Shown here: piece after piece, positions 7,946-29,175 of the stretch | How positions within the stretch are numbered: position 1 is the first letter of the stretch | Layout of the letters: each line of letters opens with the position of its first letter | DNA from: a virus | Virus record (IMG/VR): IMGVR_UViG_3300022929_000136 | Span: 1-29,175 of that record | Length of the DNA: 29,175 nucleotides | Direction: 5' to 3' (one strand) | Translations under genes and position numbers: made by a program | Notes under the pieces: model-generated | The model's input: the letters and a program-made list of their open reading frames with translations, nothing else | Database searches by the model: none | What the model was told of the DNA's origin: nothing

Positions 7946-8851
7946 TCAAACAGGAATAAAAAACCCACTATCCAAGGCCACAGATTCGGCCGCTTTCGTT
8001 GTGCGCTTCGCTCTCAATCCAACGATAAAACCGACCCCGTCAGGAATTTCAAAATATGCCCTGTCCAGATATCTCAGATCGGAAATATCTCCATCAATTA
8101 CGCGATATCCTTGGAAGGTCTCAGGTAGGCGGGCCGACTTTGCAACTTTGATCCGGCCATTTTTGTCCAGGTCGGCGAAAGGGACGGCCACAGAATACCC
8201 AGCCGCCAAAATCGAGCGCATATCTTCCAAAGTCATACCGTCAACCCAAGAAACGGTCACACTATAGTTCGGGCCGTAAGCGGCCCGCACGCGTCCAATT
8301 ACTTTTGTGTAATCGTAGAATTTAACGTCAGGGAAAAAGTTCAGCGCGTCAACACCGTACACCTTGAACGCTTTCGGCGATATGTCAGATGTGCCATTGA
8401 TGCGAACAGCAAAGTCGGCCCCCGCTTTTTCCGCTTTTTTGCGGGCCGTCATTATCTCACGAAAGAGAACGGCGCTAAAATGAGAACGAGAGGACGCGTA
8501 GAATAGCGTTCTACTGATTCGGGCCGCGTTTACTTTGTCATCAAAACTTGCGCGGCCTGAATTGAAAAGGCAGGCGGCCCGGCAACCTTCCGAGGCCGCT
8601 GGACAGACATTTACGGCCCCTGACATATCCGAGGGGGCCAAATAGGCGATATAGGTCAACACGTTAAACTTTGCTCCTTTCTCGATTTTCGCGGATTGAT
8701 TCACCCCACCAATATTTTGCGGGGTACTGAAACCGTAGCGGCCTAAAACAGCATTTACGGCCCGCAAAATTTCAGCCCGGTTTCCGGGTGCAGGTTCAAT
8801 GTGCTGCAATGATCGGCGCAACTCCCAGACTGTTTTTTGTTCGATAGTCAT
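7946..8851 (-). CDS. Gp88-like conserved phage protein
   Basis: The 301-residue protein has the conserved core of a family found in many phages and related to mycobacteriophage Gp88. A cysteine cluster, CPAASEGCRAACL (C83, C90, C94), is followed by NSGR, then ARISRTLF, then RSHFSAVLFREI, then VRINGTSDIS (about 149-158). The spaced cysteines and the R.NGTSDI strand suggest a metal or Fe-S site in a barrel-like fold, but the biochemical role is not established as far as I know. It is the main gene of a four-gene operon with two tiny membrane proteins, in a GGCC-rich island. Its leader is an array of 8-bp repeats. Confidence 0.75.
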   Translation of the reverse strand: MTIEQKTVWELRRSLQHIEPAPGNRAEILRAVNAVLGRYGFSTPQNIGGVNQSAKIEKGAKFNVLTYIAYLAPSDMSGAVNVCPAASEGCRAACLFNSGRASFDDKVNAARISRTLFYASSRSHFSAVLFREIMTARKKAEKAGADFAVRINGTSDISPKAFKVYGVDALNFFPDVKFYDYTKVIGRVRAAYGPNYSVTVSWVDGMTLEDMRSILAAGYSVAVPFADLDKNGRIKVAKSARLPETFQGYRVIDGDISDLRYLDRAYFEIPDGVGFIVGLRAKRTTKAAESVALDSGFFIPV

Positions 8852-8853
8852 AT

Positions 8854-8878
8854 TTAAATGGGTTAAAGGGTTAAAGGG
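8854..8878. repeat. 8-bp tandem repeat at a gene junction (first array)
   Basis: Plus-strand units are TTAAATGGG (8854-8862), TTAAAGGG (8863-8870) and TTAAAGGG (8871-8878). On the transcribed strand they read CCCTTTAA CCCTTTAA CCCATTTAA, ending two bases before the ATG at 8851. The stop codon TAA of the upstream gene (8871-8873) is part of one unit, so the repeat spans the stop-to-start junction. Confidence 0.85.
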
Positions 8879-9185
8879 TGAAAAGACTTTCGGTCAAGGC
8901 CGCGCATACCTGTTCGGGGTTCAAGTCAAGGCCTAGTTCCCGCTTTAATGCGCGGGCCGCTCTTGCCCCACACCTAAGTAGAACGGGGGGATAATTTTCG
9001 TCAATGATGAACCGCCCTGACTCAATGCACAAGGCCGCAACTTCCAAGAACGCGTGAAAGCTTGCGGGGTGATCTAGTTTGGTGCGTATCACAGACGTGA
9101 ACTGCTCGTCAACTTCGCATATAGTCCACAGGTGAACCGGTGCACGCAGGGCCTCAATTGTCAGGGTGTATTGGATATCGTTCAT
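8871..9185 (-). CDS. Hypothetical protein, 104 aa
   Basis: The protein starts MNDIQYTLTIEALRAPV and has alternating helices and strands. A helical middle (SFHAFLEVAALCIESG) is followed by a helix-rich end (CGARAARALKRELGLDLNPEQV). No motif was recognised. It lies between two 8-bp repeat arrays: one forms its leader, and the other contains its stop codon. Its partner downstream is the Gp88-like gene, so the two are likely co-translated. Confidence 0.65.
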   Translation of the reverse strand: MNDIQYTLTIEALRAPVHLWTICEVDEQFTSVIRTKLDHPASFHAFLEVAALCIESGRFIIDENYPPVLLRCGARAARALKRELGLDLNPEQVCAALTESLFTL

Positions 9186-9187
9186 AG

Positions 9188-9216
9188 TTAAATGGGTTGA
9201 AGGGTTAAAGGGTTAA
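9188..9216. repeat. 8-bp tandem repeat at a gene junction (second array)
   Basis: Plus-strand units are TTAAATGGG (9188-9196), TTGAAGGG (9197-9204), TTAAAGGG (9205-9212) and TTAA (9213-9216). It is nearly identical to the array at 8854-8878 and sits in the same place relative to its gene: just ahead of the ATG at 9185, with the upstream gene's TAA (9213-9215) inside it. Confidence 0.85.
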
Positions 9217-9332: not shown

Positions 9333-9679
9333 GTTTGGGTATTGGGAAAAAACCTAACGAGGGGGCAAAGTACGGGAGGGCAAACCAGGGCCGTTCACCC
9401 CATTAATACGAACGCGCACACACGAAAAGGCAAACGCGGGGACATACACAAGACCCAAAACGACCCAAAACGCCGCAAACCCGCGCCCCCAGCGGGATAC
9501 AGGCGATATGTTAAAAAGACGGCGAATCGGATCGAACGCCTAGAACCCGCGCCAACCGGGGGATGGGGGGCCACCAACAAATCGGGCCGCCACAGAGACC
9601 GGCGGGCGGGGCTTCCATTTTATCCCGCCACTTTTTGGGCGGGGGGGGTCAACGGGCTACCTTGCCGCAAACCCTTGGT
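9333..9679. other. Divergent intergenic region, GC-rich
   Basis: These 347 bases separate the minus-strand Gp88 operon from the plus-strand late operon. The strand is rich in CCCC and GGGG runs. A 120-codon frame exists here, but it begins with TTG, is made mostly of R, K, P, T and G, and looks like composition rather than protein. Apart from the overlapping hairpins at 9601-9643 nothing recognisable was seen. A late promoter is expected here. A TATAGTTTG-like stretch at 9329-9337 with TTG at 9305-9307 is a weak candidate. Confidence 0.4.
9601..9643 (+). promoter_or_regulatory. Two mutually exclusive GC hairpins in the late-operon leader
   Basis: CCCGCC at 9624-9629 can pair with GGCGGG at 9601-9606 on its left or GGCGGG at 9638-9643 on its right, but not both. 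Five T (9632-9636) lie between the middle and right arms. The left pairing would put a GC stem two bases before the T-run, like a terminator. The right pairing would remove it. It precedes the small terminase start by about 37 bases, so an attenuator is conceivable. Confidence 0.35.
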
Positions 9680-10138
9680 ATGTCAACAAACCGCAAGACC
9701 ATAGCCCTGAAGGCTTTACAGGGTACGGATAGGCCGGATCGCAAGACTTTGCCCGTACCATCCAACACAAAAACACGACCCGAACCTGTCTTCGATTTCA
9801 CTAAGGAGGAGTTGGTCTACTACAACAACCTGGTTGACCACTTAGAGGAATACAACCTCTTGCACAAGGTGGACTCGCTTGGCTTAAGTGTCTTGGCGAA
9901 GAACATCGCTATCCTCAAGTGGTGCGCTGACAATATCAAAGGTGTGGGCGATGTAGTGCAGACCTTTGATAATGGAACCAGCAACATCAGCGGTATGTAC
10001 ACCGCATACACCAAGGCTGAAGCTGCGTTCCGTGGTCTGATGTCAAAGTGGGGTTTATCACCAACAGACCGTGAAAAGATTGCGGGAATGTTGCTTGACA
10101 CTACTGAAGACGATTACGAAACTTTCAAGTCACAATGA
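9680..10138 (+). CDS. Terminase small subunit, P27-like
   Basis: The 152-residue protein begins with a polar, basic tail (MSTNRKTIALKALQGTDRPD) and a PxxxxTKTRPEPVFDFTKEE linker. A helical domain follows (YYNNLVDHLEEYNLL, then DSLGLSVLAKNIAILKW). The last part, KAEAAFRGLMSKWGLSPTDREKI, matches the end of P27-family small terminases, where a short helix is followed by GL(S/T)PxxRxKI. These proteins recognise the packaging site and regulate the large subunit. The frame is open upstream to 9563, but that segment is low-complexity GC-rich sequence, so ATG 9680 was chosen. It is the first gene of the late operon and overlaps the next by 4 bases. Confidence 0.8.
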   Translation: MSTNRKTIALKALQGTDRPDRKTLPVPSNTKTRPEPVFDFTKEELVYYNNLVDHLEEYNLLHKVDSLGLSVLAKNIAILKWCADNIKGVGDVVQTFDNGTSNISGMYTAYTKAEAAFRGLMSKWGLSPTDREKIAGMLLDTTEDDYETFKSQ

Positions 10139-11396: not shown

Positions 11397-13085
11397 ATGA
11401 AGTATGTCCAATATGCGGAGGACGTACTGAACGGGGACATCCCGGCATCGAGGTACGTTAGGCTGGCTTGTCAGCGGTTTGCTGACGACCTGGAGGGAGA
11501 GTGCGACTACACTTTCCGTCCAGATCTTGCCGACAAGTACATCACGTTCTTCACGAAATACCTTAAGCATAGCAAGGGCAAGTTTGCGGGTAAGCCGTTT
11601 CTCTTGCTCCCTTGGCAGGAGTTTGTGGTAGCCAACATCTTTGGTTGGGTAAACGATAACGGTCACCGTCGGTATCGCACCGCTTACATCCAAGTTGGAA
11701 GAAAAAGCGGCAAGACAACATTGCTTGCGGGCATCAGTTTGGCTATGCTCGACTTCGATAACGAACAGGGTAGTGAAGTGTACTACTGCGCCACCAAGAG
11801 GGACCAAGCCCGCATTTGTTTTGAGGAAGCGCAGCGGATGGTTAAGAGCAGCCCTTCCTTGTTAAAGCGCATCGGCATACACCGTGCCAATATGCACGTT
11901 CACGACACCAACAGTAAGGCTGAACCTCTGTCGAGTGACCGGAATAGCCTTGATGGACTCAATGCTCATTTGGCCGTGGTTGACGAGTATCACGCGCACA
12001 CAACGTCGCACGTTTACAACGTACTCAAATCCTCAATGGGTTCTCGTAGCCAACCATTGATGATGACCATCACAACTGCTGGATTCAATGTGGATGGGCC
12101 TTGCTACCAACTTGCCAAGACGTGTAAGGAGGTGCTGGACAAGAAGAAGACAGATGAGAGTCTCTTTGCGATGATCTACGAGTTGGACGACGATGATGAT
12201 TGGCGGGATCGTGAAACTTGGATAAAGGCCAACCCTAGCCTGAACGAATCCATCACCTACGAGTATTTAGACCAACAGGCGACTCAAGCGCGTAACTACG
12301 GGGGAGCCGAGGAAGTCAACTTTAAGACCAAACATTGCAACCTATGGGTTCGAAGTAGTGAGACCTGGGTGACGGATGAGGTATGGATGAGCAACGACCA
12401 CGGGAAGTTTGAAGTAGATGATAGAGTTTGCTATGGCGGTCTTGACCTTGCTTCGGTCAGCGACTTCTGCTCCCTTGTTCTGGTGTTCCCCTGTGATGAT
12501 GGCGGCTATGACCTGAAGCGATACTATTGGCTACCAGAGGAAGCGATTGAAAGACGACTGTACAAGGATGAAAGCACGATATACCTTGAGCTGCGTCACG
12601 CTGATGAAGTGACAGTAACTCCCGGCAACGTGACCGACTACGATTACATTCGTCAAGCCATTAGCGGGTATCACGTTGTAGATGGCAAAGTGCAGTTTGA
12701 CGAGGACTGCATTATGCGCAAATTCAACTTGAAGAGCATCGCCTTTGACCGCTATAACAGTAGTCAGCTAATCATCAATCTCACACAAGACGGTGTGGTA
12801 ATGTCACCGATGGGTCAGGGTTATGTGAGTATGTCCGCACCGATGAAGGAAGTGTATCGCCTTTTGCTTGAGGGTAAAATCAATCACGAAGGAGACCCTG
12901 TTTTACGCTGGATGGCTGGAAATCTCGAAGTTGCCTACGATCCGGCTATGAACTGCAAACCCGACAAGTCAAAATCGCAGGACAAGATAGACGGCATTAC
13001 AGCCCTGATATGCGCCGTGGGGGAGGCGATGACGGACCAGCAAGAAGATCAGTTCCCTGAAGACTATGACATACGCTTCCTATGA
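11397..13085 (+). CDS. terL: Terminase large subunit
   Basis: The 562-residue packaging motor has the ATPase domain first: an adenine-binding-like LLPWQEFVVANIFGW (70-84), Walker A GRKSGKTT (101-108), Walker B LAVVDE (192-197) and the TTAG coupling motif (226-229). The nuclease domain follows, with GGLDLAS carrying the first acidic residue (D350), AFDRYN further on and KIDGITALI near the end as the last acidic motif. Order and length fit the HK97-type large terminases (Terminase_1 family). It cuts concatemeric DNA and pumps it into the prohead. The stop overlaps the next gene by 4 bases. Confidence 0.95.
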   Translation: MKYVQYAEDVLNGDIPASRYVRLACQRFADDLEGECDYTFRPDLADKYITFFTKYLKHSKGKFAGKPFLLLPWQEFVVANIFGWVNDNGHRRYRTAYIQVGRKSGKTTLLAGISLAMLDFDNEQGSEVYYCATKRDQARICFEEAQRMVKSSPSLLKRIGIHRANMHVHDTNSKAEPLSSDRNSLDGLNAHLAVVDEYHAHTTSHVYNVLKSSMGSRSQPLMMTITTAGFNVDGPCYQLAKTCKEVLDKKKTDESLFAMIYELDDDDDWRDRETWIKANPSLNESITYEYLDQQATQARNYGGAEEVNFKTKHCNLWVRSSETWVTDEVWMSNDHGKFEVDDRVCYGGLDLASVSDFCSLVLVFPCDDGGYDLKRYYWLPEEAIERRLYKDESTIYLELRHADEVTVTPGNVTDYDYIRQAISGYHVVDGKVQFDEDCIMRKFNLKSIAFDRYNSSQLIINLTQDGVVMSPMGQGYVSMSAPMKEVYRLLLEGKINHEGDPVLRWMAGNLEVAYDPAMNCKPDKSKSQDKIDGITALICAVGEAMTDQQEDQFPEDYDIRFL

Positions 13086-17857: not shown

Positions 17858-18417
17858 TGCCCAAAATTAGTAGTAAGTACGCGCCTAATGTCTTCTTTGA
17901 CGCGTCTGAATTTCAGGATTTTGAAAGAGACCTTAAGAAGCTATATGGACTTTCCGTAAAGAAACGCAGGAAGGAGATGGGCAAGGTTCTTGCCTTTGCC
18001 CTTATGCCGACCAAGAAGGCGATGATTACCAACGCCAAGAAGATTAAGCGTAGGGGTATTCTGGCTAACAGCATTACGACAACTGACCAGAAGGCTACGG
18101 GAATCGGATCGAGAGTCGGAAAGAGGACAGGCCCAACGATTCGAGGCACAAAGAAGAAACGCGCCTACCACGCACACTTGGTCGAGTTAGGCACAAAGAA
18201 GAAGCGCAAGACCCCAAAGGCTGGTAAAGGACCATTCAGGTTCTACAGTCAGCGGTATAAGAAACGCCTCATACTGCCCTCTATTAATCACGGGAGTAAA
18301 GCCAAGCCCTACATCAAGCCAGCTTGGGAAGCTACGCGCAGAGGCATACCGGGTCGCATCAAGGAGAAGATGAACACGATCTTCAAAAACCTCACCAAAA
18401 AAATGGGCAAGAAATGA
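17857..18417 (+). CDS. HK97 gp10-like tail/neck component
   Basis: The 186-residue protein is very basic (runs such as KKKRKTPKAGK). It shows the HK97 gp10-family layout: an N-terminal helix FERDLKKLYGL, then a VLAFALMPTKKAMITNAKKI helix, then YHAHLVELGTKKKRK (the Y.....E.GT motif of the family) and a C-terminal helix IKEKMNTIFKNLTKKMGKK. It acts at the neck, where the tail joins the head. The stop overlaps the following ATG by 4 bases. Confidence 0.85.
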   Translation: MPKISSKYAPNVFFDASEFQDFERDLKKLYGLSVKKRRKEMGKVLAFALMPTKKAMITNAKKIKRRGILANSITTTDQKATGIGSRVGKRTGPTIRGTKKKRAYHAHLVELGTKKKRKTPKAGKGPFRFYSQRYKKRLILPSINHGSKAKPYIKPAWEATRRGIPGRIKEKMNTIFKNLTKKMGKK

Positions 18418-18809
18418 TTCATATTGTTCGCGCACGTTTGATTCAAAACGACGCACTTACTGACCTGATACCCGCGTCATCCATTCACCTATGCAAGGCT
18501 CGTCAGACTAATGAGCGACCATACATTGTGATTGACCTGGAGGAGACCCAATTCGAAAGGAACAACCTTGCGGTACACGGGGAGATTTACAATGTGCTGG
18601 TGTATATCACCGCAGAGAAAATCAGTCAGGCTTGGGAAATTCACGAGGAGGTCAAACGGTCCCTTTCCGAATATGACGGGTCAGTTACTGTTGACGGAGT
18701 CACCTACAACTTTGGTCAATGTAGCCTCGTGGACATTATGACTGATTCCCACGAGATACACGACTTCTACATCGTCGGTATGTCATTCAACATCATTATG
18801 GGTGTTTAA
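18414..18809 (+). CDS. Tail terminator/tail completion protein (DUF3168-like)
   Basis: The 131-residue protein starts MIHIVRARLIQNDALTDLIP and continues with a strand-rich body: RPYIVIDLEET, then GEIYNVLVYITAE, then AWEIHEEVKRSLSEY. The sequence of a short helix, a P....V strand, a strand pair with V.VY...., and a helix around E.VK..L matches minor tail/terminator proteins of the DUF3168 type, which cap the tail tube. Position immediately before the tail tube gene fits. The upstream in-frame extension overlaps the previous gene and was left out. Confidence 0.75.
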   Translation: MIHIVRARLIQNDALTDLIPASSIHLCKARQTNERPYIVIDLEETQFERNNLAVHGEIYNVLVYITAEKISQAWEIHEEVKRSLSEYDGSVTVDGVTYNFGQCSLVDIMTDSHEIHDFYIVGMSFNIIMGV

Positions 18810-18820
18810 TCGAACTTGGT

Positions 18821-18853
18821 TTGTCTTCTGCCTTTGATGTCTATTTAATCTTG
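18821..18853 (+). promoter_or_regulatory. Weak promoter candidate before the tail-tube genes
   Basis: The 60-base gap at 18810-18869 contains TTG at 18821-18823 and TAATCTTG at 18846-18853, one mismatch from TAnnTTTG, separated by 22 bases. That would start transcription about 10 bases ahead of the tail-tube ATG. Spacing is slightly long, so this remains a candidate. Confidence 0.25.
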
Positions 18854-18869
18854 CCCCAAAGAACAAGCT

Positions 18870-19298
18870 ATGGCAGCACTTAATGGCAATTGCGTCACAC
18901 TATATGTAGCCTCCGGCAGCGGCACTCCTTCTTTTTCAGGTACTGAAATTGACGGCGTGACTAGTTGTAGTATCTCTTTGAGCAACGCTACGTTTGAGAC
19001 GACTTCAATCCAAGGCGGTAGTTGTGCGACAGTTCGCGACTTTGCGGTTGGAACTACGAGCGGATCTTTGAGCGTTGAAGGCATTGTTGATGAGTCTTTG
19101 GCGACAGGAGGAACAAACATCTTGTTCAATTATTGTGACACCAAGACCCAGATCTCAATGGCTTGGGGTGATGGCACAAAAGGTTTTGGTGCGGTAGGTT
19201 ACTGCACTTCTTTCGAAATCTCTGCCGGAATGGACGACTTTGCTACGTTCTCGGCTTCATTTGAAATTGACGGTCTTCCCGTTGCAATCGGATTCTGA
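18870..19298 (+). CDS. Major tail tube protein, copy 1
   Basis: The 142-residue protein is almost entirely beta strand: VTLYVASGSG, SCSISLSNATFETTS, SGSLSVEGIV, QISMAWGDG, GYCTSFEISAGMDDFATFSAS. This is the composition and pattern of siphovirus tail tube subunits, in which a strand ending in F.ATFS.S.E..G closes the sandwich. A second, related gene follows immediately. The two share NATFE, VGT...S...EG.VD, (K/S)QI..(A/C)W, GY.TSF and DDFATFS.S.E in the same order. It polymerises around the tape measure to form the tail tube. There is no Shine-Dalgarno site upstream. Confidence 0.85.
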   Translation: MAALNGNCVTLYVASGSGTPSFSGTEIDGVTSCSISLSNATFETTSIQGGSCATVRDFAVGTTSGSLSVEGIVDESLATGGTNILFNYCDTKTQISMAWGDGTKGFGAVGYCTSFEISAGMDDFATFSASFEIDGLPVAIGF

Positions 19299-19300
19299 CA

Positions 19301-19795
19301 ATGGCTGGAGTAAATTCAAATACTTGTTGCATCTACATTGATACGGCGGCAGGAAGCGTAAGTAATGACCCGGCTGAAACATCAGGGGCAAGTCCGGCAC
19401 TTGTTCCAATTGCTTATAGCACTTCTGCTGGTGTCTCTATCAACAATGCCACCTTTGAGGTCAACTACAAGAAGGCCACGGGTGCTACAGTATCAGACGC
19501 ACCATCTCTTGCTCCCACAAGGGCTTTCAATGTCGGAACTCAAACCGCAAGTATGAGTTTTGAGGGTGTTGTTGATTGGACGGTGATTGCTGACACGATT
19601 GCTCTCAACGAGATCTTCAATAGTTTTCTTGCCAAGAGTCAAATCACGGCCTGTTGGGCTAGTACGGACACCAATGCAAACGCATATCACGCGAAAGGCT
19701 ACATCACAAGTTTTGACTTGAGTAGTAGTGTAGATGACTTCGCTACTTTCAGCGGATCAATTGAGTTGATTGGTGACATCACCGAATTGGCTTGA
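19301..19795 (+). CDS. Tail tube protein paralogue, copy 2
   Basis: The 164-residue protein begins MAGVNSNTCCIYIDTAAGS, two bases after copy 1 ends. It carries the same ordered motifs (NATFE, FNVGT...S..FEGVVD, KSQITACW, KGYITSFDLSSSVDDFATFSGSIEL). It is about 20 residues longer, with most of the extra length near its start and middle, and ends GDITELA. Two tail-tube homologues in tandem are uncommon. One may be the main tube protein and the other a minor or tip form, or a decoration-bearing variant. A copy of its last 18 bases is repeated just downstream, pointing to a duplication by recombination. Confidence 0.8.
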   Translation: MAGVNSNTCCIYIDTAAGSVSNDPAETSGASPALVPIAYSTSAGVSINNATFEVNYKKATGATVSDAPSLAPTRAFNVGTQTASMSFEGVVDWTVIADTIALNEIFNSFLAKSQITACWASTDTNANAYHAKGYITSFDLSSSVDDFATFSGSIELIGDITELA

Positions 19796-19815
19796 TGGGT
19801 GACATCACCGAACTG
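19772..19815. repeat. 18-bp direct repeat at the end of tail-tube copy 2
   Basis: GGTGACATCACCGAATTG (19772-19789) recurs as GGTGACATCACCGAACTG (19798-19815) with one mismatch, 26 bases later. The first copy codes for GDITEL at the end of the tail-tube gene. The second would code for the same residues followed by a stop codon. It looks like the remnant of a further partial gene copy. Confidence 0.85.
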
Positions 19816-19847
19816 TAATTAGTGTATCTTCGGGGAAACCCTCGTAG

Positions 19848-20204
19848 ATGAACTCTCTGTCCGGTAAATTTCAAATCACGGTTGGCAAGAAGAAATTCGA
19901 ATGCCATCTGTCTATGAACGCCTTCCGGATGCTTGCCGAGAAGGAGGATTTGTCACTTGAGCAAGTTCAGCTTCTTCTCCAGCACCGACCCATTTCGGCT
20001 GTTCCCGGCATCCTGTATATGGGTGTCAAGAACCACTTCTACTTCAACTCGAAGCCGCTCGACGAACTACCCGACTACGAGTACTTCACGGCTCGGATTT
20101 TGGACGATGCCGAAATGCTGCCCAAGTACATCGAACACATCACCAAGGTTTACCAAGGTGAGGAGGAGGTGGACGAAGAGGACCAGGGGCAGGGAAAGAA
20201 GTAA
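19848..20204 (+). CDS. Tail assembly chaperone, upstream frame (gpG-like)
   Basis: The 118-residue protein starts MNSLSGKFQITVGKKKFECH and is helical and acidic towards its end (VYQGEEEVDEEDQGQGKK). Position between the tail tube and tape measure, a size near 120 residues and an in-frame slippery site just before the stop identify it as the short chaperone of the lambda G/GT type. It binds the tape measure and tube subunits during tail assembly and is not part of the finished tail. Most ribosomes should stop at TAA 20202-20204. A fraction shifts back one base. Confidence 0.85.
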   Translation: MNSLSGKFQITVGKKKFECHLSMNAFRMLAEKEDLSLEQVQLLLQHRPISAVPGILYMGVKNHFYFNSKPLDELPDYEYFTARILDDAEMLPKYIEHITKVYQGEEEVDEEDQGQGKK

Positions 20205-20560
20205 GCGGTCAAGACAAGCCTGTTACTTGGGACGACCTGTACCGTCAGGGTCTATCCTGCGGCTTGTTGCCCAATCAGTTTTGGTCGCTTACATTCTTTG
20301 AATTCACACAATATTCCCGGTCGATCCGGGAGTCGGATGAACGTGCTTGGTGGCATACTGCCAGCCTTATGGCTCTTCACGCCAATCTAAACCGTGACCC
20401 AAAACGTAAGCCGAAGCCTTACACGGCATCGGACTTCTTTCCGTATACCGAAAAAAAGAAAGCAAAGTTTGTTCGCCCTATTGAGGACGACACAAAAGAA
20501 CTTGCCGCCGATTGGGCCACAAGGCTCACCAACCTGAAAAATGGCGGAGAAAGTAAGTAA
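19848..20560 (+). CDS. Tail assembly chaperone, frameshifted long form (gpGT-like)
   Basis: This is the -1 frameshift product. The first frame is read to 20198, then translation continues at 20198 in the frame one base back, through EVSGQDKPVTWDDLYRQG and FEFTQYSRSI to TAA ending at 20560. The product is about 237 residues. The second frame is open from before the slippery site and has no good start codon near its beginning, so it is reached by frameshifting. Its tail includes an aromatic segment (ERAWWHTASLMALHAN) followed by a basic, proline-rich stretch. It plays the role of lambda gpGT, linking the tape measure to tube subunits. The end overlaps the tape-measure start by 20 bases. Confidence 0.85.
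20192..20198 (+). promoter_or_regulatory. Programmed -1 frameshift slippery site GGGAAAG
   Basis: The heptamer GGGAAAG is in the correct phase (G GGA AAG) and fits the X-XXY-YYZ rule. It is the same heptamer as the lambda G-T frameshift site. It lies 4 bases before the zero-frame stop TAA. After the slip the ribosome reads GAA GTA AGC in the -1 frame. Confidence 0.9.
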
Positions 20561-23441
20561 GCTATCAGTCATTCTCTCTCTGGATAGCACCAAGTTCGAA
20601 AGGGCTTTGGGTGAGACGGAGAAGAAGATGAAGAACGTGGGTCGTCAGCTTGCGCAGACGGGCCAAGATATGAGCCTGTATCTGTCGTTGCCACTTGCGT
20701 TAATTGGGCAACGGATAACCGAGACAGCTACTGAATTTGAGTACCAGATGGCGCGTGTGTCGGCCATTAGTGGTGCTACAGGGGTGCAGTTTGGTAAACT
20801 TCAGAGCAACGCAGAAAGGCTCGGTGCATCGACCATCTTCACTGCCCGTGAAGTCGGTCAGTTGTCAGAGGAGTTTGCCAAACTCGGATTTACTGCCGAC
20901 GAGATTGTTCAGGTCACAGAAAGCACCTTGTCTTTGGCGCAAGTGACAGGTGCGGCATTGCCTAGAGCCGCAGAGGTCTCTGGTGCTGCCTTGCGGACAT
21001 TTGGATTAGACGCATCCAAGGTTGGCGAGGTCAATGATGTCGTTGCCGTAGCAATTAGTAAGTCCGCATTGGACTTCGAGTCTTTCGCCGAGACTATGAA
21101 GTATGCGGGATCGCAAGCGGCTATTAGCGGGATCTCAATGGAAGAGTTGAGTGCCGCTATGGGTGTCCTTGCCAATACAGGTGTCAAGGGTTCAATCGCG
21201 GGTACACGTCTGCGTATGATTTTCGCCAAACTCTCGCAGGAGGGCGGCAATGTCCACGACAATTTCATCGAGTTGATCAACAGCAACTTGACGATGAACG
21301 AGGCCATTGAACGCTTTGGAATTCGAGCCGCCACCGCCATACCTGTACTCCAGCAGAACCGCGAAGAGTTCTTCAAGTTGGAGAAGCAGATGAGGTTGTC
21401 GTCAGGCACTCTTGCCATTATGCAAGAGACTATGGATGACACTTCTTTTGCAATGCAGAGGAAGCTGAAGTCTGCATTAGAAGATGTGAGCATTCAAATG
21501 GGTAAGGCCCTGCTCCCGATGGTCAACCTGGTTGCAGGAGCATTGACTTACTTGGCTAATGGCTTTGCTAGTCTACCACCATTCATACACGGTGCAATTG
21601 TTTCGTTCGGTGCAATTGTTGCGGCTGCCGGACCGCTATTGCTTCTGACAGGGAAGTTGCTTCAAATACTTCCAACACTAACTCTGGTCTTCCCCAAGTT
21701 AGCCGCCGCAATCACATTCCTAACCGGACCTTGGGGTCTTCTCATTGCTGGTGTAGCGGCATTGAGTATGGCGTTGTATGCGGCGATTGGAAGATCCGAG
21801 AAGATGGCCGCAATGACAGAGCGACTTGCTGATGCAAGTAAAGCGGCAAGTCAAAATGCGGTCGAAGGCACTTCCAAGATTAAACTTCTCATTGAGGCTT
21901 ACAACAATGAGAACCGGACGATGGAGGAGAAGCAGGACATCTTGGACAAGCTAATGGAGCTGCAACCTGACTACTTCAAGGAGTTAGACGCAAACAAAAC
22001 CAAGGTGGCTGACCTGAAGACCGCCTATGACGAGTTGTTCAAGTCAATGCTTAAGCAGGAGACTGCAAAGGCATTTATGGCAGAAATCAATAAGCTGGAG
22101 CAACAACGCATTCAAGCGTTGATTGAGCAGGACAAGATTCGTCCTGGTATGGAGCAAACACAGACCAACCTTGACGCGGCAAAAGCAAGGCAAGAGGAAA
22201 CCGGAGGTACGGGAAGTATCCTGATGGGAACCTCGTCGGGTACTGCGATAACCGACACCGAAAACATTCTTAAACGTCAGAAAGGTCTGATGCAAGACCA
22301 ACAGGACATCATCGACGAAGCCGAGTCGCAGATCAAACAGATTGGTAAATTGATGGAGGGGCAAGGCTTAGATGCGCTCCTTGGCAATTTAACGGGTAGT
22401 GGAAGCGGAGCCGGACAGCCTGTCGAGTCCGGGGTTGACCCGGTGGACTTCTCGGTCAAGGCGACAACAAGCGAAAAGGCTCTGACCAAACTTGGCAATG
22501 CGCTCTCCGAAACTGCTGTGCGTATGTCCGTCTTGGGTATGAGCAGCAAGGAGGTTGCAGAGGAGAAGTTGAAGGCATTCGAGTCTGCTTTGGGTGCATT
22601 GATTACAGCCTCTTCGGAAGGTGAGAGTGTAGGCAATGAGATCGCGTACATCGTTGCCGAAATGGGCAATTTGCAAACCGAAATTGATGCCCTGACGCAG
22701 AGCGAGGATCTTGACAAGATCTTCAAGAAGATGAACGAAGGCTTTTCTTCATCAAAGATTGCTATCCAGGAGGGGGCTATCACCCCATTGGAGGACGCAA
22801 AAAACCGAATGAAGGCGACCAAAGATGCACTTGATGCATTGACTGACGCGCATTCGGATCAAGCCAGCACTATTGCCAGACTACGCGGTGAATACGCGCT
22901 ATTGGTAGATGAGGTTAAAAAGTTGACTGAAGCCGAGCGACTTGAAAAGCTGCAAAAGGACGTAATGACCAAAACCAATGAAGCCATAATTCAAGGAAGT
23001 ATGGACATTGGTAAGGCTTTGGGTCAGGTTGCGGCAAGTGGAGAGGATGCGGGCAAGGCTATGCTAGAGGCTTCTACAAGCGCACTTTCAGCACTCATCA
23101 CGCAACTGTACCTTTTGTACGCAAAGTCGGTGATGACTAGTGCGACAATCCCTGATCCTATAGCGAAGCTTGCGGCATTAGGCATTGGAGCGGGCATCTT
23201 GAGTGGCTTCGTTGCTAACATCCCCAAAATGGCCCAAGGGGGTATCGCCGTTGGTGAGCAGCTTGTAACGGTCGGCGACAACCGCTCTGGTCGGGAGGCA
23301 ATCATCCCGCTCGAAAAATTGCCGTCAATGATGGAGAAGATGGGGGCTGGTGGCAATAACCGAGTATATGGCTCGCTTCGCGGAGAAGACATTCATTTAA
23401 GCAGTATGCGCGGAGCAAGAATGCAACAAAGAATCATTTGA
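20541..23441 (+). CDS. Tail tape measure protein
   Basis: The 966-residue protein carries the TP901-type core (about 60-290). It includes FEYQMARVSAISGATG, GASTIFTAREVGQLSEEFAKLGF, a segment with ALRTFGLDASKVGEVNDV, and GVLANTGVKGSIAGTRLRMI, the standard order for this family. A membrane-active hydrophobic region follows (about 350-416), then long helical, alanine- and lysine-rich coils (420-900). Near the end is the conserved MAQGGIAVGEQLVTVGDN block followed by GREAIIPLE. By the rule of about 0.15 nm per residue the tail would be roughly 145 nm long. It is ejected with the DNA and may help cross the cell envelope. Confidence 0.95.
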   Translation: MAEKVSKLSVILSLDSTKFERALGETEKKMKNVGRQLAQTGQDMSLYLSLPLALIGQRITETATEFEYQMARVSAISGATGVQFGKLQSNAERLGASTIFTAREVGQLSEEFAKLGFTADEIVQVTESTLSLAQVTGAALPRAAEVSGAALRTFGLDASKVGEVNDVVAVAISKSALDFESFAETMKYAGSQAAISGISMEELSAAMGVLANTGVKGSIAGTRLRMIFAKLSQEGGNVHDNFIELINSNLTMNEAIERFGIRAATAIPVLQQNREEFFKLEKQMRLSSGTLAIMQETMDDTSFAMQRKLKSALEDVSIQMGKALLPMVNLVAGALTYLANGFASLPPFIHGAIVSFGAIVAAAGPLLLLTGKLLQILPTLTLVFPKLAAAITFLTGPWGLLIAGVAALSMALYAAIGRSEKMAAMTERLADASKAASQNAVEGTSKIKLLIEAYNNENRTMEEKQDILDKLMELQPDYFKELDANKTKVADLKTAYDELFKSMLKQETAKAFMAEINKLEQQRIQALIEQDKIRPGMEQTQTNLDAAKARQEETGGTGSILMGTSSGTAITDTENILKRQKGLMQDQQDIIDEAESQIKQIGKLMEGQGLDALLGNLTGSGSGAGQPVESGVDPVDFSVKATTSEKALTKLGNALSETAVRMSVLGMSSKEVAEEKLKAFESALGALITASSEGESVGNEIAYIVAEMGNLQTEIDALTQSEDLDKIFKKMNEGFSSSKIAIQEGAITPLEDAKNRMKATKDALDALTDAHSDQASTIARLRGEYALLVDEVKKLTEAERLEKLQKDVMTKTNEAIIQGSMDIGKALGQVAASGEDAGKAMLEASTSALSALITQLYLLYAKSVMTSATIPDPIAKLAALGIGAGILSGFVANIPKMAQGGIAVGEQLVTVGDNRSGREAIIPLEKLPSMMEKMGAGGNNRVYGSLRGEDIHLSSMRGARMQQRII

Positions 23442-23442
23442 G

Positions 23443-26400
23443 ATGGCAACCCAAGTAGTATACACAAGCACATTTCATAGTCAGAGTGACGACACGTTCC
23501 GGATTGACATCGTGGATGTTGATTATGCCGCAGAGGGTATTAGCCCAACCAATCAGATGTATGGATATGGCATATCCAATCTGCCGCGTGAGTTTCAGGT
23601 CATTCACGAGAGTCCAACGATAACCTGGGACGGTAATGCAGAGGAATTAGCCCAACCTTTGATTGGATCAAAGTTGGAGTTTACTGCTCTTTTAGAAAAC
23701 GAGCATAAAGGTCTGCTTGCGGCAATGAAGCAATTGCCCGAACACCGATTGTGTGCAGAGGTCTACAGGCACAATGGGGCAAGTTCGGACTTAAGTACGG
23801 AAAGTAATTGGGACATCTATTGGCGCGGCGTGTTGGTACACGAAGCGGTCAACTATAGCTACAGTTGCTACCCCATTGAGATTTCGATGGTTTTTACTGA
23901 CGGTCTGGCTCTGCTAAAAGACCAGCCGTACCTCGATCCGGATACCGACGCGGACTACCTAAATGATGGTCTTGAGGGTACTGTTGCGGGAAGCAGCTTT
24001 GCACCATTGCGTGTGCAAATAGGTCGGTGTCTGAAGAGGTTGCCTCACAACGCTCTTTGGGGGGATCAAGACGACTACTTCACCGAACAGATTGACTTGT
24101 TTCATTGGAATCACATTGATGAGACAGCCACTCCCGACGAGATTAAAAGCGTCCTCGACAAGACGGGATGTGATCAGCGCATTTGGTACGAGATTCGGGA
24201 CTACGAGGACGATTGGTATCGCAAGAGCAAGATTGTAACCAACGGCAGTACTTGCTACCAAATCCTGTCCGACATAATGGTGACGATGGGAGCAAGCTTC
24301 TATCACGCTGATGGTATGTTCAATGTCACTTCTCCCTTTATGCAGGAGAGTGATTCGGTCATCAATGGCAAGCGCAAATTCTTAGCGGATAAGCGAAGCC
24401 TCTTGGACTCATCATACGCATATAGCGCATATTCACAACCATCAGGATGGGCAGACGGGACGACATTCCCCAACCTTGTTGACTTAACGGACGACCAGGA
24501 CGACCAGAAGTATCTCATCGTAAGTAGTCGATCTTGGCTTGCTGCCCTGCAACGCGTCAGCTTAACCCATCGTAGTGGTGGCGCACCGCTCATCTTTAGT
24601 CAAAAACACAACAAGATTGGCTACATATGCGGAGTGACCGGGGCGACCTCTGGAACCGTTGTTCCGAATCCGGTAAATGAGAATCTTGAGGTCAACTACG
24701 GCTACCAATTTCCGCTCACCAATTCAGAGTCTATAGTACCCGCTGACTCAGAATTGAACCTTCGTGGTAAGGTGCGTTTTGGTCACGATCTGCTGGTTGA
24801 TGCTGACGATGATAAGCTAGGGCTTCAGCCTGTCTTGCGGTTTGAAATTAAGGTTGGCAACTATTACCTGAAGCAGACTGTTCAGTTGATGTCATCAAGT
24901 GATTTCAGCAATGACAGCGACTTTGGAACAATACGCGTTGCTCTAGGAAATAACGTCGTTCCTTCTGGCAATGACATCACAGGTTGGTTGCCTGTTGAGA
25001 TAACTGACCAAGTTCAATGGACAACAAATAGTGCCGATAGGTTCGAGCTGCCGTTACTGCTCCCTGACTACCTTCAAGAGACGCACGATACGATTGAGTA
25101 TGTCGATTCTGACGACAATGCTTACGAGTACCCTGTAGGCTTCTTTACTAAACGAGACAACAATCATCCTAACCAGATGAGTTCTAGTAACTCGGAGCAA
25201 AATGGAACTTACGAGAGAACATTAGAATTAGACATAGTGCTTCCTCCTGTCCCAGATGCAGTAGCGGAGCATACGGGAGTGAAAATCGACATTGAGGTCA
25301 TTGTGTATGACAATCAAGGTAGTTCTGTTGTAGGCACGACTGCTGACAATAGCGATCCATTCTCTTGCCAAATCATCGACTTCCAACTCTTCAATGGTGA
25401 CGAGTCATATGACCAAGACACTTTGTATTTCGCCAGCCATACCAACCCTGCGGGTGCAGAGACGTATGATGTAGGCGAGACATCGATTGGAACTCGGCCC
25501 GCCGAAATGTATGGGGAGTTAGGCGCACTTGTTGTGGGTAACGGGCATCGTACTGCCAACCGCGCGTCCGCTTATGGAGACCATTGGTTCAGTCAGTCAT
25601 TGGAGTCTTTTCCAACTAGCGACGCGGGCAGTAAAAACCTTGACCTTGTAGTTCGGTCACACTTCAGCAATCGCCAACAGACCATCAGCACCTACAAGAT
25701 GGAAATCCTGACTCGCAATCACCATAGCGAGTTCATTGTACCCACAAGGCGGGTGAAGTTGGAAGAGGGTGACTCCGAGCCTGTTGTGCAAGTGCAGTCC
25801 TGCCAGCACAACTTGATGCAGGGTGTTATGTCTTTCCAAGCATATGAGGTCGATCGGGTTCTGACCAATATGACCACCGACAATAGCACGGAGGCTTTTG
25901 ACACCTTGATTGGGCCGAAAGGGCCGAAAGGCTCGTTGCCAGGTGACTTCGCAACAACGAAAGTGTCCAAGGTGGGTGGCGGTGCAGGGTTGACCCAAGA
26001 GCAGATTGATAAGCTTCTGGCTATTACCATCAACGGCAATGGCGATATCACCGACTTTACAGTAGCATCAGGTTCCGATCCGCTTGATGTGAGCGAGGTG
26101 AGCGGAGCTGCATCGACTACTACGGTTGCTACGCTTCAACAACGCGTGACTGACATCGAGCGAGTGACTGACAACGTCACCCTCGATCAGGCAAATAACA
26201 TCTCGCAGATTGCAACGAACCAAGATGCAATTGCGGCAAATGCTATCCTGCAAACAAGCACAAAACAGTTTGTCACTCAGGCACAATCGACGCAGATTGG
26301 AACGAACGAAACTGACATCGCCAATCTCAATACAACTCTTGATGCAGTAACCGACGTCATCAAGGGGAGTACGGCAGGAACAGGAAAGGGTCTGTATTCC

Positions 26401-28602
26401 GATACCAATAGCACAACTGAAAGTAGTGTAGTTGTCAATGCCAACCTGATTTCCGCATCAGTCGAGACGGGATCTTCCGGTACGGAGACTTCTACTACTG
26501 CACTCCGAATTACCGGAGGTACAACTGCTGGAGATGCTACAGTGAACTTCGACGTTCCTACGGCAGGGATAAGCCACGACGATTTAGACGACAGACCTCC
26601 GCTTTACCACGGCATTGGTTTGGACGCGGCTGGCACTAGCGGTTTCCTGATTGGTAGTGGTAGTGTGTCTTTTGCGGTTGGCGATCTGTTGTCATTTACA
26701 TACAACAACAATGCAGGTATCTACCAATGCATTACAGCCACCTCAATTTCACAGGGGTCCAACGCTACCAATGTTTTCACAAATTGGCTTGCGGAGGCGA
26801 GCAAGTTTACACACGTTGGCGCAAGGGGTGACCTCAGTTTGGGGACGTTGGATTCGAGTACGTCATCTGACAATTTCAGCGATAGTCTTACCACATTTAC
26901 TTTGACGTGCAGTAGTACTGTATCCATTACTTCTTCCTCACTCATTGCTCTTTTCGGCACGGTGTTTTCGACAGGGTCAATTACTGCGGCAGGATTTACG
27001 ACTACGGGTACGGGTACGATAGGAACACTTGTCGCAAGTAGCCTGAACTATCCTACCTCGGACGGAACTTCCGGACAGGCTCTCGTGACGGACGGCTCCG
27101 GCAACTTGTCCTTCTCGACGATTAGTAGTGGTCTAACTGACATAGTTGACGACACCACTCCACAGCTTGGTGCGGATTTGGATATGTTCACCAATAGTGC
27201 CGAGTTGCTTGTGACGGGCAACGTATATGTGTTCCGATATCACACCGGGTCGGCAGCCACAAACTACGGACTGTTCTTCAACCTTACTTCGGCTCGTTTT
27301 GAGTTCCTCGATGGTTCAGGCAATGAGGTGTTTGCCATCAATGCCAACAACGGCAAGACCAAGGTTGCCAACTCTTACTTTCTGCCAACCGCAGACGGAT
27401 CAAGCGGTCAAACCATACAGACCGATGGTAGCGGCAATCTGTCGTTTGTTACCAAGACGCACTACCACGACCGCTACAGCACCGAAGCCGAGAGCGAGCG
27501 CAGCGGCGCGACGGCTACGCTGGAGATATACTACACCGCGCGACCTGACGGCGACGGGTATGCGGAAAGCGAAGTGAGCGACGTTGGCGAGACCGACACC
27601 ATCAACCGCACGCTGTACTACAGCGACAAATTCCAAGCCGACCCAGACACCGCGGGCGACTGGACCGAGTACACCACACAGCCAGCAGATAACGCCACGT
27701 TCGCCACAGCTAAAGCGGCGCTCCTTGCCGGCCTCAATGAGACCGACGCCACAGCAGAGACGCGCGGCACGTTGCCGCTGTCGCTTAAGATGGTGCGCAC
27801 GACAACCGCGGCGGCTAGTGACTTACTGTTAGACACTTACCCAGGCGCGGCGGCGGCGTACTCTGTGCGCAAGCTGGACAAGGACTACACAGGTTACTGC
27901 ATGAAGGTGCGACGCGCCAGCGACGATGCTGAGGCTGATATTGGCTTCGACGTAAATGGAGATTTGGACACTTCTGCCATCGCCACGCATTGCGGGGCAT
28001 CAGCCGGTTACTGCAGCGTGTGGTACGATATGTCAGGCAACAGCAGAAACGCCACGCAAAGCACCGCGAGCGCACAGCCGCAGATATACAACGGCACGGC
28101 GGTCATTACCGAGAACGGAAAGCCTGCGCTGGATTGGGACGGCACAAATGACGTGCTAATAACGTCATACAGTCCTACCGTGACGCACACGGCTTTCTTT
28201 GCTCAAGTGCCTGTTACAAGTACCTTTGGACCTGTTTACGCTTCAGCAGATACGGGCAGTTCGAGAATGTGGGTCGGGGCAAGTGGTGGTAATACTCTTA
28301 CAATTTACCGCGGCGGCACAGTCGCTTTCTCAGAAGGTACCACATTAAGCGGTCAATATTTAGGCTACTGTTTGAATAAGGCAACAGTAACAGACGTGCG
28401 GCTTGGTGTGGATGGAAGTAATGTCGCGGCAAGCGGTAACATTGGAATCGGCGTAATCACTAACCTGCGCCTTGGTGCTGAACCAGAGTCAGGTAATTAT
28501 GGAGATAGCCGAATACAGGAGTTCATTATTTACGATTCTGACAATTCCAGCAATAAGACCGGCATCGAGACTGACATCGACACTTACTTCAGCATAACAT
28601 AA
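23443..28602 (+). CDS. Distal tail / receptor-binding fibre polypeptide with GH54-like lectin end
   Basis: The 1719-residue protein is the only large gene after the tape measure. Residues 1 to about 820 are mostly beta, with an N-terminal part like a baseplate or distal tail domain. GPKGPKG (around 824) marks a collagen-like break. A coiled coil follows (about 890-975; TLQQRVTDIERV, TNETDIANL). Two fibre repeats (SDGTSGQALVTDGSGNLSF near 1206, ADGSSGQTIQTDGSGNLSF near 1316) come next. From about 1461 there is a concanavalin-like domain with AAYSVRKL, VRRASDDAEADIGFD, GDLDTSAI and VWYDMSGNSRNATQ, matching the GH54 arabinofuranosidase-type fold. That end probably binds host surface glycans. Base composition changes near 27460, suggesting replacement of the tip. 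Confidence 0.85.
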   Translation: MATQVVYTSTFHSQSDDTFRIDIVDVDYAAEGISPTNQMYGYGISNLPREFQVIHESPTITWDGNAEELAQPLIGSKLEFTALLENEHKGLLAAMKQLPEHRLCAEVYRHNGASSDLSTESNWDIYWRGVLVHEAVNYSYSCYPIEISMVFTDGLALLKDQPYLDPDTDADYLNDGLEGTVAGSSFAPLRVQIGRCLKRLPHNALWGDQDDYFTEQIDLFHWNHIDETATPDEIKSVLDKTGCDQRIWYEIRDYEDDWYRKSKIVTNGSTCYQILSDIMVTMGASFYHADGMFNVTSPFMQESDSVINGKRKFLADKRSLLDSSYAYSAYSQPSGWADGTTFPNLVDLTDDQDDQKYLIVSSRSWLAALQRVSLTHRSGGAPLIFSQKHNKIGYICGVTGATSGTVVPNPVNENLEVNYGYQFPLTNSESIVPADSELNLRGKVRFGHDLLVDADDDKLGLQPVLRFEIKVGNYYLKQTVQLMSSSDFSNDSDFGTIRVALGNNVVPSGNDITGWLPVEITDQVQWTTNSADRFELPLLLPDYLQETHDTIEYVDSDDNAYEYPVGFFTKRDNNHPNQMSSSNSEQNGTYERTLELDIVLPPVPDAVAEHTGVKIDIEVIVYDNQGSSVVGTTADNSDPFSCQIIDFQLFNGDESYDQDTLYFASHTNPAGAETYDVGETSIGTRPAEMYGELGALVVGNGHRTANRASAYGDHWFSQSLESFPTSDAGSKNLDLVVRSHFSNRQQTISTYKMEILTRNHHSEFIVPTRRVKLEEGDSEPVVQVQSCQHNLMQGVMSFQAYEVDRVLTNMTTDNSTEAFDTLIGPKGPKGSLPGDFATTKVSKVGGGAGLTQEQIDKLLAITINGNGDITDFTVASGSDPLDVSEVSGAASTTTVATLQQRVTDIERVTDNVTLDQANNISQIATNQDAIAANAILQTSTKQFVTQAQSTQIGTNETDIANLNTTLDAVTDVIKGSTAGTGKGLYSDTNSTTESSVVVNANLISASVETGSSGTETSTTALRITGGTTAGDATVNFDVPTAGISHDDLDDRPPLYHGIGLDAAGTSGFLIGSGSVSFAVGDLLSFTYNNNAGIYQCITATSISQGSNATNVFTNWLAEASKFTHVGARGDLSLGTLDSSTSSDNFSDSLTTFTLTCSSTVSITSSSLIALFGTVFSTGSITAAGFTTTGTGTIGTLVASSLNYPTSDGTSGQALVTDGSGNLSFSTISSGLTDIVDDTTPQLGADLDMFTNSAELLVTGNVYVFRYHTGSAATNYGLFFNLTSARFEFLDGSGNEVFAINANNGKTKVANSYFLPTADGSSGQTIQTDGSGNLSFVTKTHYHDRYSTEAESERSGATATLEIYYTARPDGDGYAESEVSDVGETDTINRTLYYSDKFQADPDTAGDWTEYTTQPADNATFATAKAALLAGLNETDATAETRGTLPLSLKMVRTTTAAASDLLLDTYPGAAAAYSVRKLDKDYTGYCMKVRRASDDAEADIGFDVNGDLDTSAIATHCGASAGYCSVWYDMSGNSRNATQSTASAQPQIYNGTAVITENGKPALDWDGTNDVLITSYSPTVTHTAFFAQVPVTSTFGPVYASADTGSSRMWVGASGGNTLTIYRGGTVAFSEGTTLSGQYLGYCLNKATVTDVRLGVDGSNVAASGNIGIGVITNLRLGAEPESGNYGDSRIQEFIIYDSDNSSNKTGIETDIDTYFSIT

Positions 28603-29006
28603 TGGCTACCGTATACCTCCCAGTAACCGCGCGCCTGAACCTCACCAGCGAGCAACGCGCCAAAGGCATCAGCCGCGAGCTGTACAACCTGAAGCTACCG
28701 AAGGTGTTGCACGAACCTGGGCGCACCACGACGATGCTGCTGGCCACCATCCAGCACCCAGATACAGGACAGTGGGCGTGCGTCGGTGACACCGATCTAG
28801 CTATTAACGTACACCCACAGCGCGACTTGCATGCGCTCATAGCTTTGTTCCCACAGCTGACGCAGGAAGAGCGCGACGCAATGACGTACTACATCGGCAC
28901 GTCGCCCGTGGTGCTGTTCCAATATCTGATGCCATCGGACAGCGAGATATTGACGCAAGAACAGGCCGAAGCCGCGGGGTGGTTCGGTGATGGTCCCGGC
29001 GTTTAA
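28602..29006 (+). CDS. Fibre-associated hypothetical protein (full-length)
   Basis: The 134-residue protein starts MATVYLPVTARLNLTSEQRAK and shows a beta-then-helix pattern (TTMLLATIQHPDTGQWACVGDTD, then DLHALIALFPQLTQEERD). It is coupled to the fibre stop by a TAATG overlap, so it is probably made with the fibre. Its last two thirds are nearly identical to the partial gene at the left end of the window. Candidates are a fibre chaperone or a tip component, but no family was recognised. Its GC-rich codons match the GC-rich segment of the fibre tip. Confidence 0.75.
   Translation: MATVYLPVTARLNLTSEQRAKGISRELYNLKLPKVLHEPGRTTTMLLATIQHPDTGQWACVGDTDLAINVHPQRDLHALIALFPQLTQEERDAMTYYIGTSPVVLFQYLMPSDSEILTQEQAEAAGWFGDGPGV
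28795..28991. repeat. Near-identical copy of window bases 1-197
   Basis: Bases 28795-28879 are identical to 1-85, and the whole 197-base segment has 6 mismatches against 1-197. Beyond it the sequences differ: the left copy continues with about 290 bases before its holin-like gene, the right copy with about 55. The identity begins exactly at the first base of the window. Confidence 0.95.
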
Positions 29007-29046
29007 GGTGTCGATTTAAGCCATGCGGGCGCGATAACTTGCGGGC

Positions 29047-29175
29047 ATGGACATCCTCCTCGATAACTGGGCCGCCATCGCGCTGGCCATCTTGGCCGCC
29101 GTCGACGTAATTGTGAGCTTCACGCCTTCGAAGCGTGACGACCAAATCGTCGGATACCTTTCGATTATCGTGCGC
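29047..29175 (+). CDS. Second holin-like gene (partial, 5' end)
   Basis: ATG at 29047 opens a frame running off the end of the window (43 residues). It starts MDILLDNWAAIALAILAAV, with one membrane span at about residues 7-24 followed by TPSKRDDQIVGYLS. It is clearly homologous to the protein at 494-667 (MSDLLIQNW...; SITPGKTDDKVVGYIR), at roughly half identity by eye and with much higher GC. The start codon lies inside a 6-bp inverted repeat (CCATGC at 29021-29026, GCATGG at 29045-29050). It probably precedes another endolysin gene beyond the window. Confidence 0.75.
   Translation, partial: MDILLDNWAAIALAILAAVDVIVSFTPSKRDDQIVGYLSIIVR

Follow-up and report, generated by a model that had tools for sequence, protein, structure and literature searches.

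P1, a conserved gene behind an exchangeable tail hub tip, is repeated at both ends of a viral contig

The window analysed here is the whole IMG/VR virus record, 29,175 bases in length, and the features described lie on its plus strand unless stated otherwise. The packaging genes are far from the contig ends and include the terminase small subunit (9563-10138, start uncertain; PF05119, E 1.5e-7) and the terminase large subunit (11397-13085; phrog_9, E 3e-167; PF20441 and PF03354). The tail-tube-like genes at 18870-19298 and 19301-19795 are neighbours and are about 35% identical to each other at the amino acid level. A contig from another IMG metagenome (3300018416), L091:1-5956, is 99.95% identical to window positions 17893-23848, so nearly the same phage is present there. 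The right part of the window is dominated by a gene for a tail hub-like protein with an exchangeable C-terminal tip (23443-28602), which comes after the tape measure gene and whose N-terminal part is 99% identical in L083 and L087, 71% in L088 and 60% in L090. The stop codon of the tip overlaps the start codon of a gene that we call P1 (TAATG), whose right copy (28602-29006; allele B) encodes 134 amino acids ending in GDGPGV. The remaining bases (29007-29175) hold a spacer and a holin-like gene, B (29047 onward), which is truncated by the contig end; this sequence is typical of tail-tube-type phages. A 32-base direct repeat (94%; 8848-8879 and 9182-9213) is found at the 5' ends of two adjoining genes on the minus strand, a GP88-like gene (7946-8851) and the gene at 8871-9185, and possibly represents a shared promoter or leader.

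The left end of the window opens inside a second copy of P1 (allele A) and continues into the lysis side of the genome. A small hydrophobic open reading frame of 57 codons (orf328, 328-501) is conserved in the window lineage, with 98% amino acid identity in L083, L084 and L087 and 68% in L090. It is followed by a 57-residue single-TM protein, A (494-667), which is called holin-like by position only; it has one hydrophobic stretch of 19 residues with a mean Kyte-Doolittle value of 1.85, and it precedes the amidase in L083, L084, L087 and L090. Profile searches returned no named family for either of the holin-like proteins A and B. The next genes encode an N-acetylmuramoyl-L-alanine amidase (660-1100, start codon uncertain; PF01510, E 5e-12; phrog_822, E 4e-34) and a VRR-NUC nuclease (1097-1462; PF08774, E 1.4e-11). 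For the amidase profile matches, the query was the translated frame except for the first two residues, entered by hand.

Self-comparison of the window revealed a single long direct repeat, 28795-28991 against 1-197, in which 191 of 197 positions are identical without gaps (96.95%, E 1e-91). The first 85 bases are identical, the six mismatches fall at left positions 86, 111, 113, 120, 125 and 163, and past left position 197 the two copies diverge completely, with nothing obvious in common. The exact 85-base identity may reflect the overlap length of an assembler, and the conclusions do not draw on it. A first-pass annotation had described the match of about 97% with its 85 identical bases, the unlike spacers behind the two copies (about 290 versus 55 bases) and the homologous, strongly diverged holin-like genes that follow, and all of these observations were borne out. 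The homology of the holin-like genes is apparent at the protein level, with 57% identity between A and B over the first 23 or so residues and 45% between A and the full homologue of B in L003. Both repeat copies fall within P1 coding sequence, the right one in 28602-29006 and the left one in a frame that is cut at its 5' end and open to the contig start (3-206). The repeat corresponds to the 3' half of a conserved gene of 132-134 codons that overlaps the stop codon of the variable fibre tip. The repeated gene is the fibre-tip-linked P1 and not a lysis gene.

The identical direct repeat that marks a closed genome is not present at the contig ends, where 97% identity and six differences give way to full divergence. 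If the packaged genome were linear with true terminal redundancy, a direct repeat would be expected at its termini, and 197 bases is a plausible length for one. In a redundant molecule both ends normally carry the same sequence, but here 6 of 197 sites differ before the sequences part entirely, and the ends fall in the gene for a fibre partner, a long way from 9.5-13 kb, where the terminase genes are. Terminal redundancy was rejected on these sequence differences and this distance, and we regard it as extremely improbable.

Relatives of the window showed how its two arms are connected. A search with the amidase retrieved sister contigs that share about 98% identity with the window across kilobases. 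Matches to the window begin at 22291 in L083, at 25419 in L084 and at 22392 in L087 (the same contig as L085), and all of them run through the hub gene to window position 27452. A different tip of about 600 bases follows in each of the three, and after it the sequence from window position 207 onward, at 97-98% DNA identity and with orf328, the holin-like gene, the amidase and VRR-NUC. L090, which is about 60% identical at the amino acid level, has the order hub, tip region, orf328, holin-like gene, amidase and VRR-NUC, without P1. In L129, from another lineage, the order is TMP, hub with tip, P1 and amidase, which is a natural precedent for the closed order of the window. The left arm of the window belongs directly behind its right arm because the sisters join the hub, a tip and the sequence from 207 onward; the sequence left of the break was found to follow that right of the break at 98% identity in L083, L084 and L087 and by synteny in L090. 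Joining the two flanks within P1 restores an uninterrupted gene of 132 codons ending in GDSI and a stop, as in many relatives. Exact IMG/VR searches for the junction between P1-A and position 207 found none outside the window, which is weak evidence, near-identical records possibly having been left out. The contig very probably closes on itself inside P1 as a unit of about 28,794 bp that would be circular in the assembly sense, and the synteny in these four relatives supports the circular or permuted genome of about 28.8 kb that had been proposed initially. The window appears best read as one nearly complete siphophage-like genome whose contig ends meet in P1.

Because the window closes on itself, no duplication of the lysis genes is needed. 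A linear genome in which two P1-holin units occur and the stretch between the contig ends went unsequenced would account for the two homologous P1 genes and the two homologous holin-like genes on one contig, but two P1 genes were found in none of the P1 contigs inspected, and the sisters leave no room for a second unit. Duplication of a lysis module was rejected on the direct joining of hub, tip and lysis genes in the sisters and is very unlikely. The second lysis module raised as an alternative in the first-pass annotation also loses its basis with the repeat being the tip-linked P1.

The right end has a different affiliation. From about position 28880, the right P1 copy, the spacer and holin-like gene B are 96-99% identical in DNA to L003, L005, L006 and L009, and the 182 bases at 28994-29175 are 98.4% identical to the start of L131. 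The gene after holin-like B is a tail tube gene, never an amidase, in four of four relatives with downstream sequence (L003, L006, L009 and L131), and the tape measure gene lies further downstream of the tail tube in these tube-type relatives. Holin-like B, a protein similar to A, thus sits within the tail operon there, whereas A is next to the amidase. In the window lineage, the tail tube and tape measure genes are upstream of the hub. The right end was read as that of another phage type because the tail tube follows holin-like B in the relatives yet lies elsewhere in the window lineage, and for holin-like B this origin seems a better explanation than allelism with the window's lysis locus. 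The original proposal that the right end is a different allele of the left lysis module retains its repeat and its closure but not the assignment of holin-like B, whose context is the tail tube.

The contig could instead span two real alleles of one population, one with tip, P1-A, orf328, holin-like A and amidase and the other with tip, P1-B, holin-like B and something else. The left and right P1 are 97% identical and each is closer to the other than to any known copy (best 94-95%), as such alleles would be. P1 is also clearly mosaic, so exchange within it does occur: its first part is nearest to L008, L004 and L081 (96-98%) and its 3' part to L003 and L009 (94-97%), and in both window copies the mosaic switch falls at the same point, near position 86. 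The tail tube context of holin-like B counts against two alleles, however, and a window-type series of hub, tip and P1 followed by holin-like B was seen in no relative, which leaves this reading unlikely. The explanation that we consider probable is a closed genome and an assembly chimera, in which the contig passed by way of the shared P1 into another phage with this gene. The left end would then hold the P1 and lysis genes of this phage itself; the right end would have continued via P1 into the spacer and small membrane-protein gene of a tail-tube-type phage. At the right end we infer such a chimera in preference to a genuine but rare recombinant; the close kinship of the two P1 copies makes a recent, true recombination possible.

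P1 is a plausible branch point for assembly because near-identical P1 genes occur in many phages of similar waters. Twelve of 80 P1 contigs end inside P1, compared to 4.9 expected (Poisson p 0.0045), a modest excess over a length-only model. Short-read viral assemblies fragment at microdiverse islands, some of which are bounded by tail fibre genes (PMC6487183). The window resembles these islands in that contigs break off at fibre-side genes that are shared and exchanged among co-occurring strains, and differs from them in that one specific conserved gene, P1, marks both contig ends. A repeat like this one at contig ends can point to a shared gene that recombines instead of to genome termini, and a suspected allele swap at contig ends was largely resolvable from relatives without reads.

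Comparison with the sisters also defined the borders of an inserted cassette. L083, L084 and L087 lack P1, and in the window the tip and P1 replace the resident tip, with sharp borders at 27452/27453 and 206/207. The 5' border (27445-27455) lies in a Thr codon common to recipient and donor-like sequences: the sisters match the window to 27452 and then diverge, and the donor-like L019 reads GCTACCAAGACGCACTACCAC at this place and has the same downstream bases as the window. The cassette ends with the last codons and stop of P1-A (198-206), since the three sisters match the window from 207 and not before; the same nine-base ending is present in L004, L007, L008, L081 and others. The 3' border cuts a small open reading frame of 39 codons in the sisters, the 5' part of which was replaced by the end of P1 and the 3' part of which survives in the window as a remnant at 193-276 (sisters MHISEDPLEELPTTATLADVIAKLNEVIEAINHMWHPGH, window MILSKAEVIAKLNEVIQAINHMWHPGH, as read from the sequences). 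These borders support the earlier placement of an exchange between fibre tip and lysis genes. Recombination in conserved flanks, with P1 serving as the 3' flank, would have put the cassette of tip and P1 in place of the hub gene's resident tip.

The tip (27453-28602) consists of a conserved first part, a hypervariable part at 28120-28524 and a conserved stretch of about 45 bases at its end. In an alignment of 43 sequences, the majority-residue frequency along the tip was mostly 0.73-0.97, then 0.21-0.43 and finally 0.66-0.78. The C-terminal 250 residues gave a reasonable structural model that matches GH54 arabinofuranosidases in the PDB (Foldseek E 7e-11), suggesting a GH54-like, lectin-like beta-sandwich. 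The tip is 32-45% identical in amino acid sequence to GH54 alpha-L-arabinofuranosidase-like modules of phage structural proteins. These modules are from Gordonia, Arthrobacter, Aphanizomenon and Synechococcus S-CBS4 phages, and their GH54 annotations are no proof of enzyme activity. A P1-like gene was found in no INPHARED phage.

The detected relatives of P1 in IMG/VR number 116. P1 is strongly conserved (73-98% amino acid identity), much more so than the variable part of its tip. In the relatives with upstream sequence, P1 stands directly behind a tip in every case, whether the tip is on a tail terminator, a hub or another fibre gene, and its start overlaps the tip's stop codon or lies within a few bases of it, with tip ends that resemble TGIETDINTYFSI; most relatives have the overlap seen in the window. 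No match to P1 was found in Pfam, PHROGs, NCBIfam or INPHARED phages, and none among the GTDB contigs searched for bacterial and archaeal genomes. The AlphaFold model of P1 had a mean pLDDT of 44.7, too poor for a structure search or a comparison of chaperone folds. P1 represents a new, unannotated protein family, and the module for host recognition to which it belongs is of a known kind.

In phage T4 (gp37/gp38) and phage lambda (Stf/Tfa), a variable receptor-binding end is accompanied by a small downstream gene and the pair is spread by mosaic recombination; tip and P1 resemble these systems in layout, a likeness by description. In the Alteromonas phages A5 and V22, the host-recognition module consists of a fibre (gp8/gp26) and a chaperone (gp9/gp27), for which a fold as a beta-hairpin trimer was proposed, and the pair is common to distantly related phages via horizontal exchange (PMC10579305). 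The cassette in the window similarly has a small partner gene immediately behind a fibre gene, and the pair is horizontally shared. Unlike V22 gp27, P1 is shorter (132-134 versus 195 amino acids) and also occurs behind tail-terminator and hub proteins, and the proposed likeness is one of function only. BLASTP and profile comparison detected no similarity of P1 to V22 gp27, so that neither this protein nor the four databases named above linked P1 to a known chaperone. By analogy, P1 most likely acts as chaperone, cap or partner to the tip: the tip would recognise a surface sugar, and P1 would assist or cap it, as in the Alteromonas fibre-chaperone modules.

Tip and P1 are paired in otherwise unrelated phages. 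Most P1 contigs have the tip fused to a tail terminator (PF11367), with P1 behind it and then genes for a small membrane protein and for the tail tube. Fusion of the tip to the hub is seen in the window and L129, and in L129 the amidase comes after P1; L036 has tip and P1 on an unrelated fibre of 803 amino acids, and P1 adjoins terminase genes in L070. L134, a phage with a GroES-like co-chaperonin, has four tandem tip-lectin modules in one protein of at least 1078 amino acids (L134:2-3238). Across 501 bases, its second module is 84% identical in DNA to the hypervariable tip part of the window, and next comes a P1 homologue (45%). As in a partner cassette, the relatives with upstream sequence have a small gene immediately after the fibre, which it overlaps or adjoins within a few bases. 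We tentatively propose, at somewhat less than even odds, that tip and P1 form a portable adhesin cassette of an undescribed family that is moved between unrelated phages and between virion positions: the neck via the terminator, the opposite end via the hub, and four tandem modules in a large unrelated phage. When metagenomes are searched for exchangeable receptor-binding tips, P1 is a possible marker. L003:2478-4478 and similar loci of the main P1 group encode the tip fused to a tail-terminator (gp17/DUF3168-type) protein, and such a fusion would put the adhesin near the tail neck, not at the tail tip.
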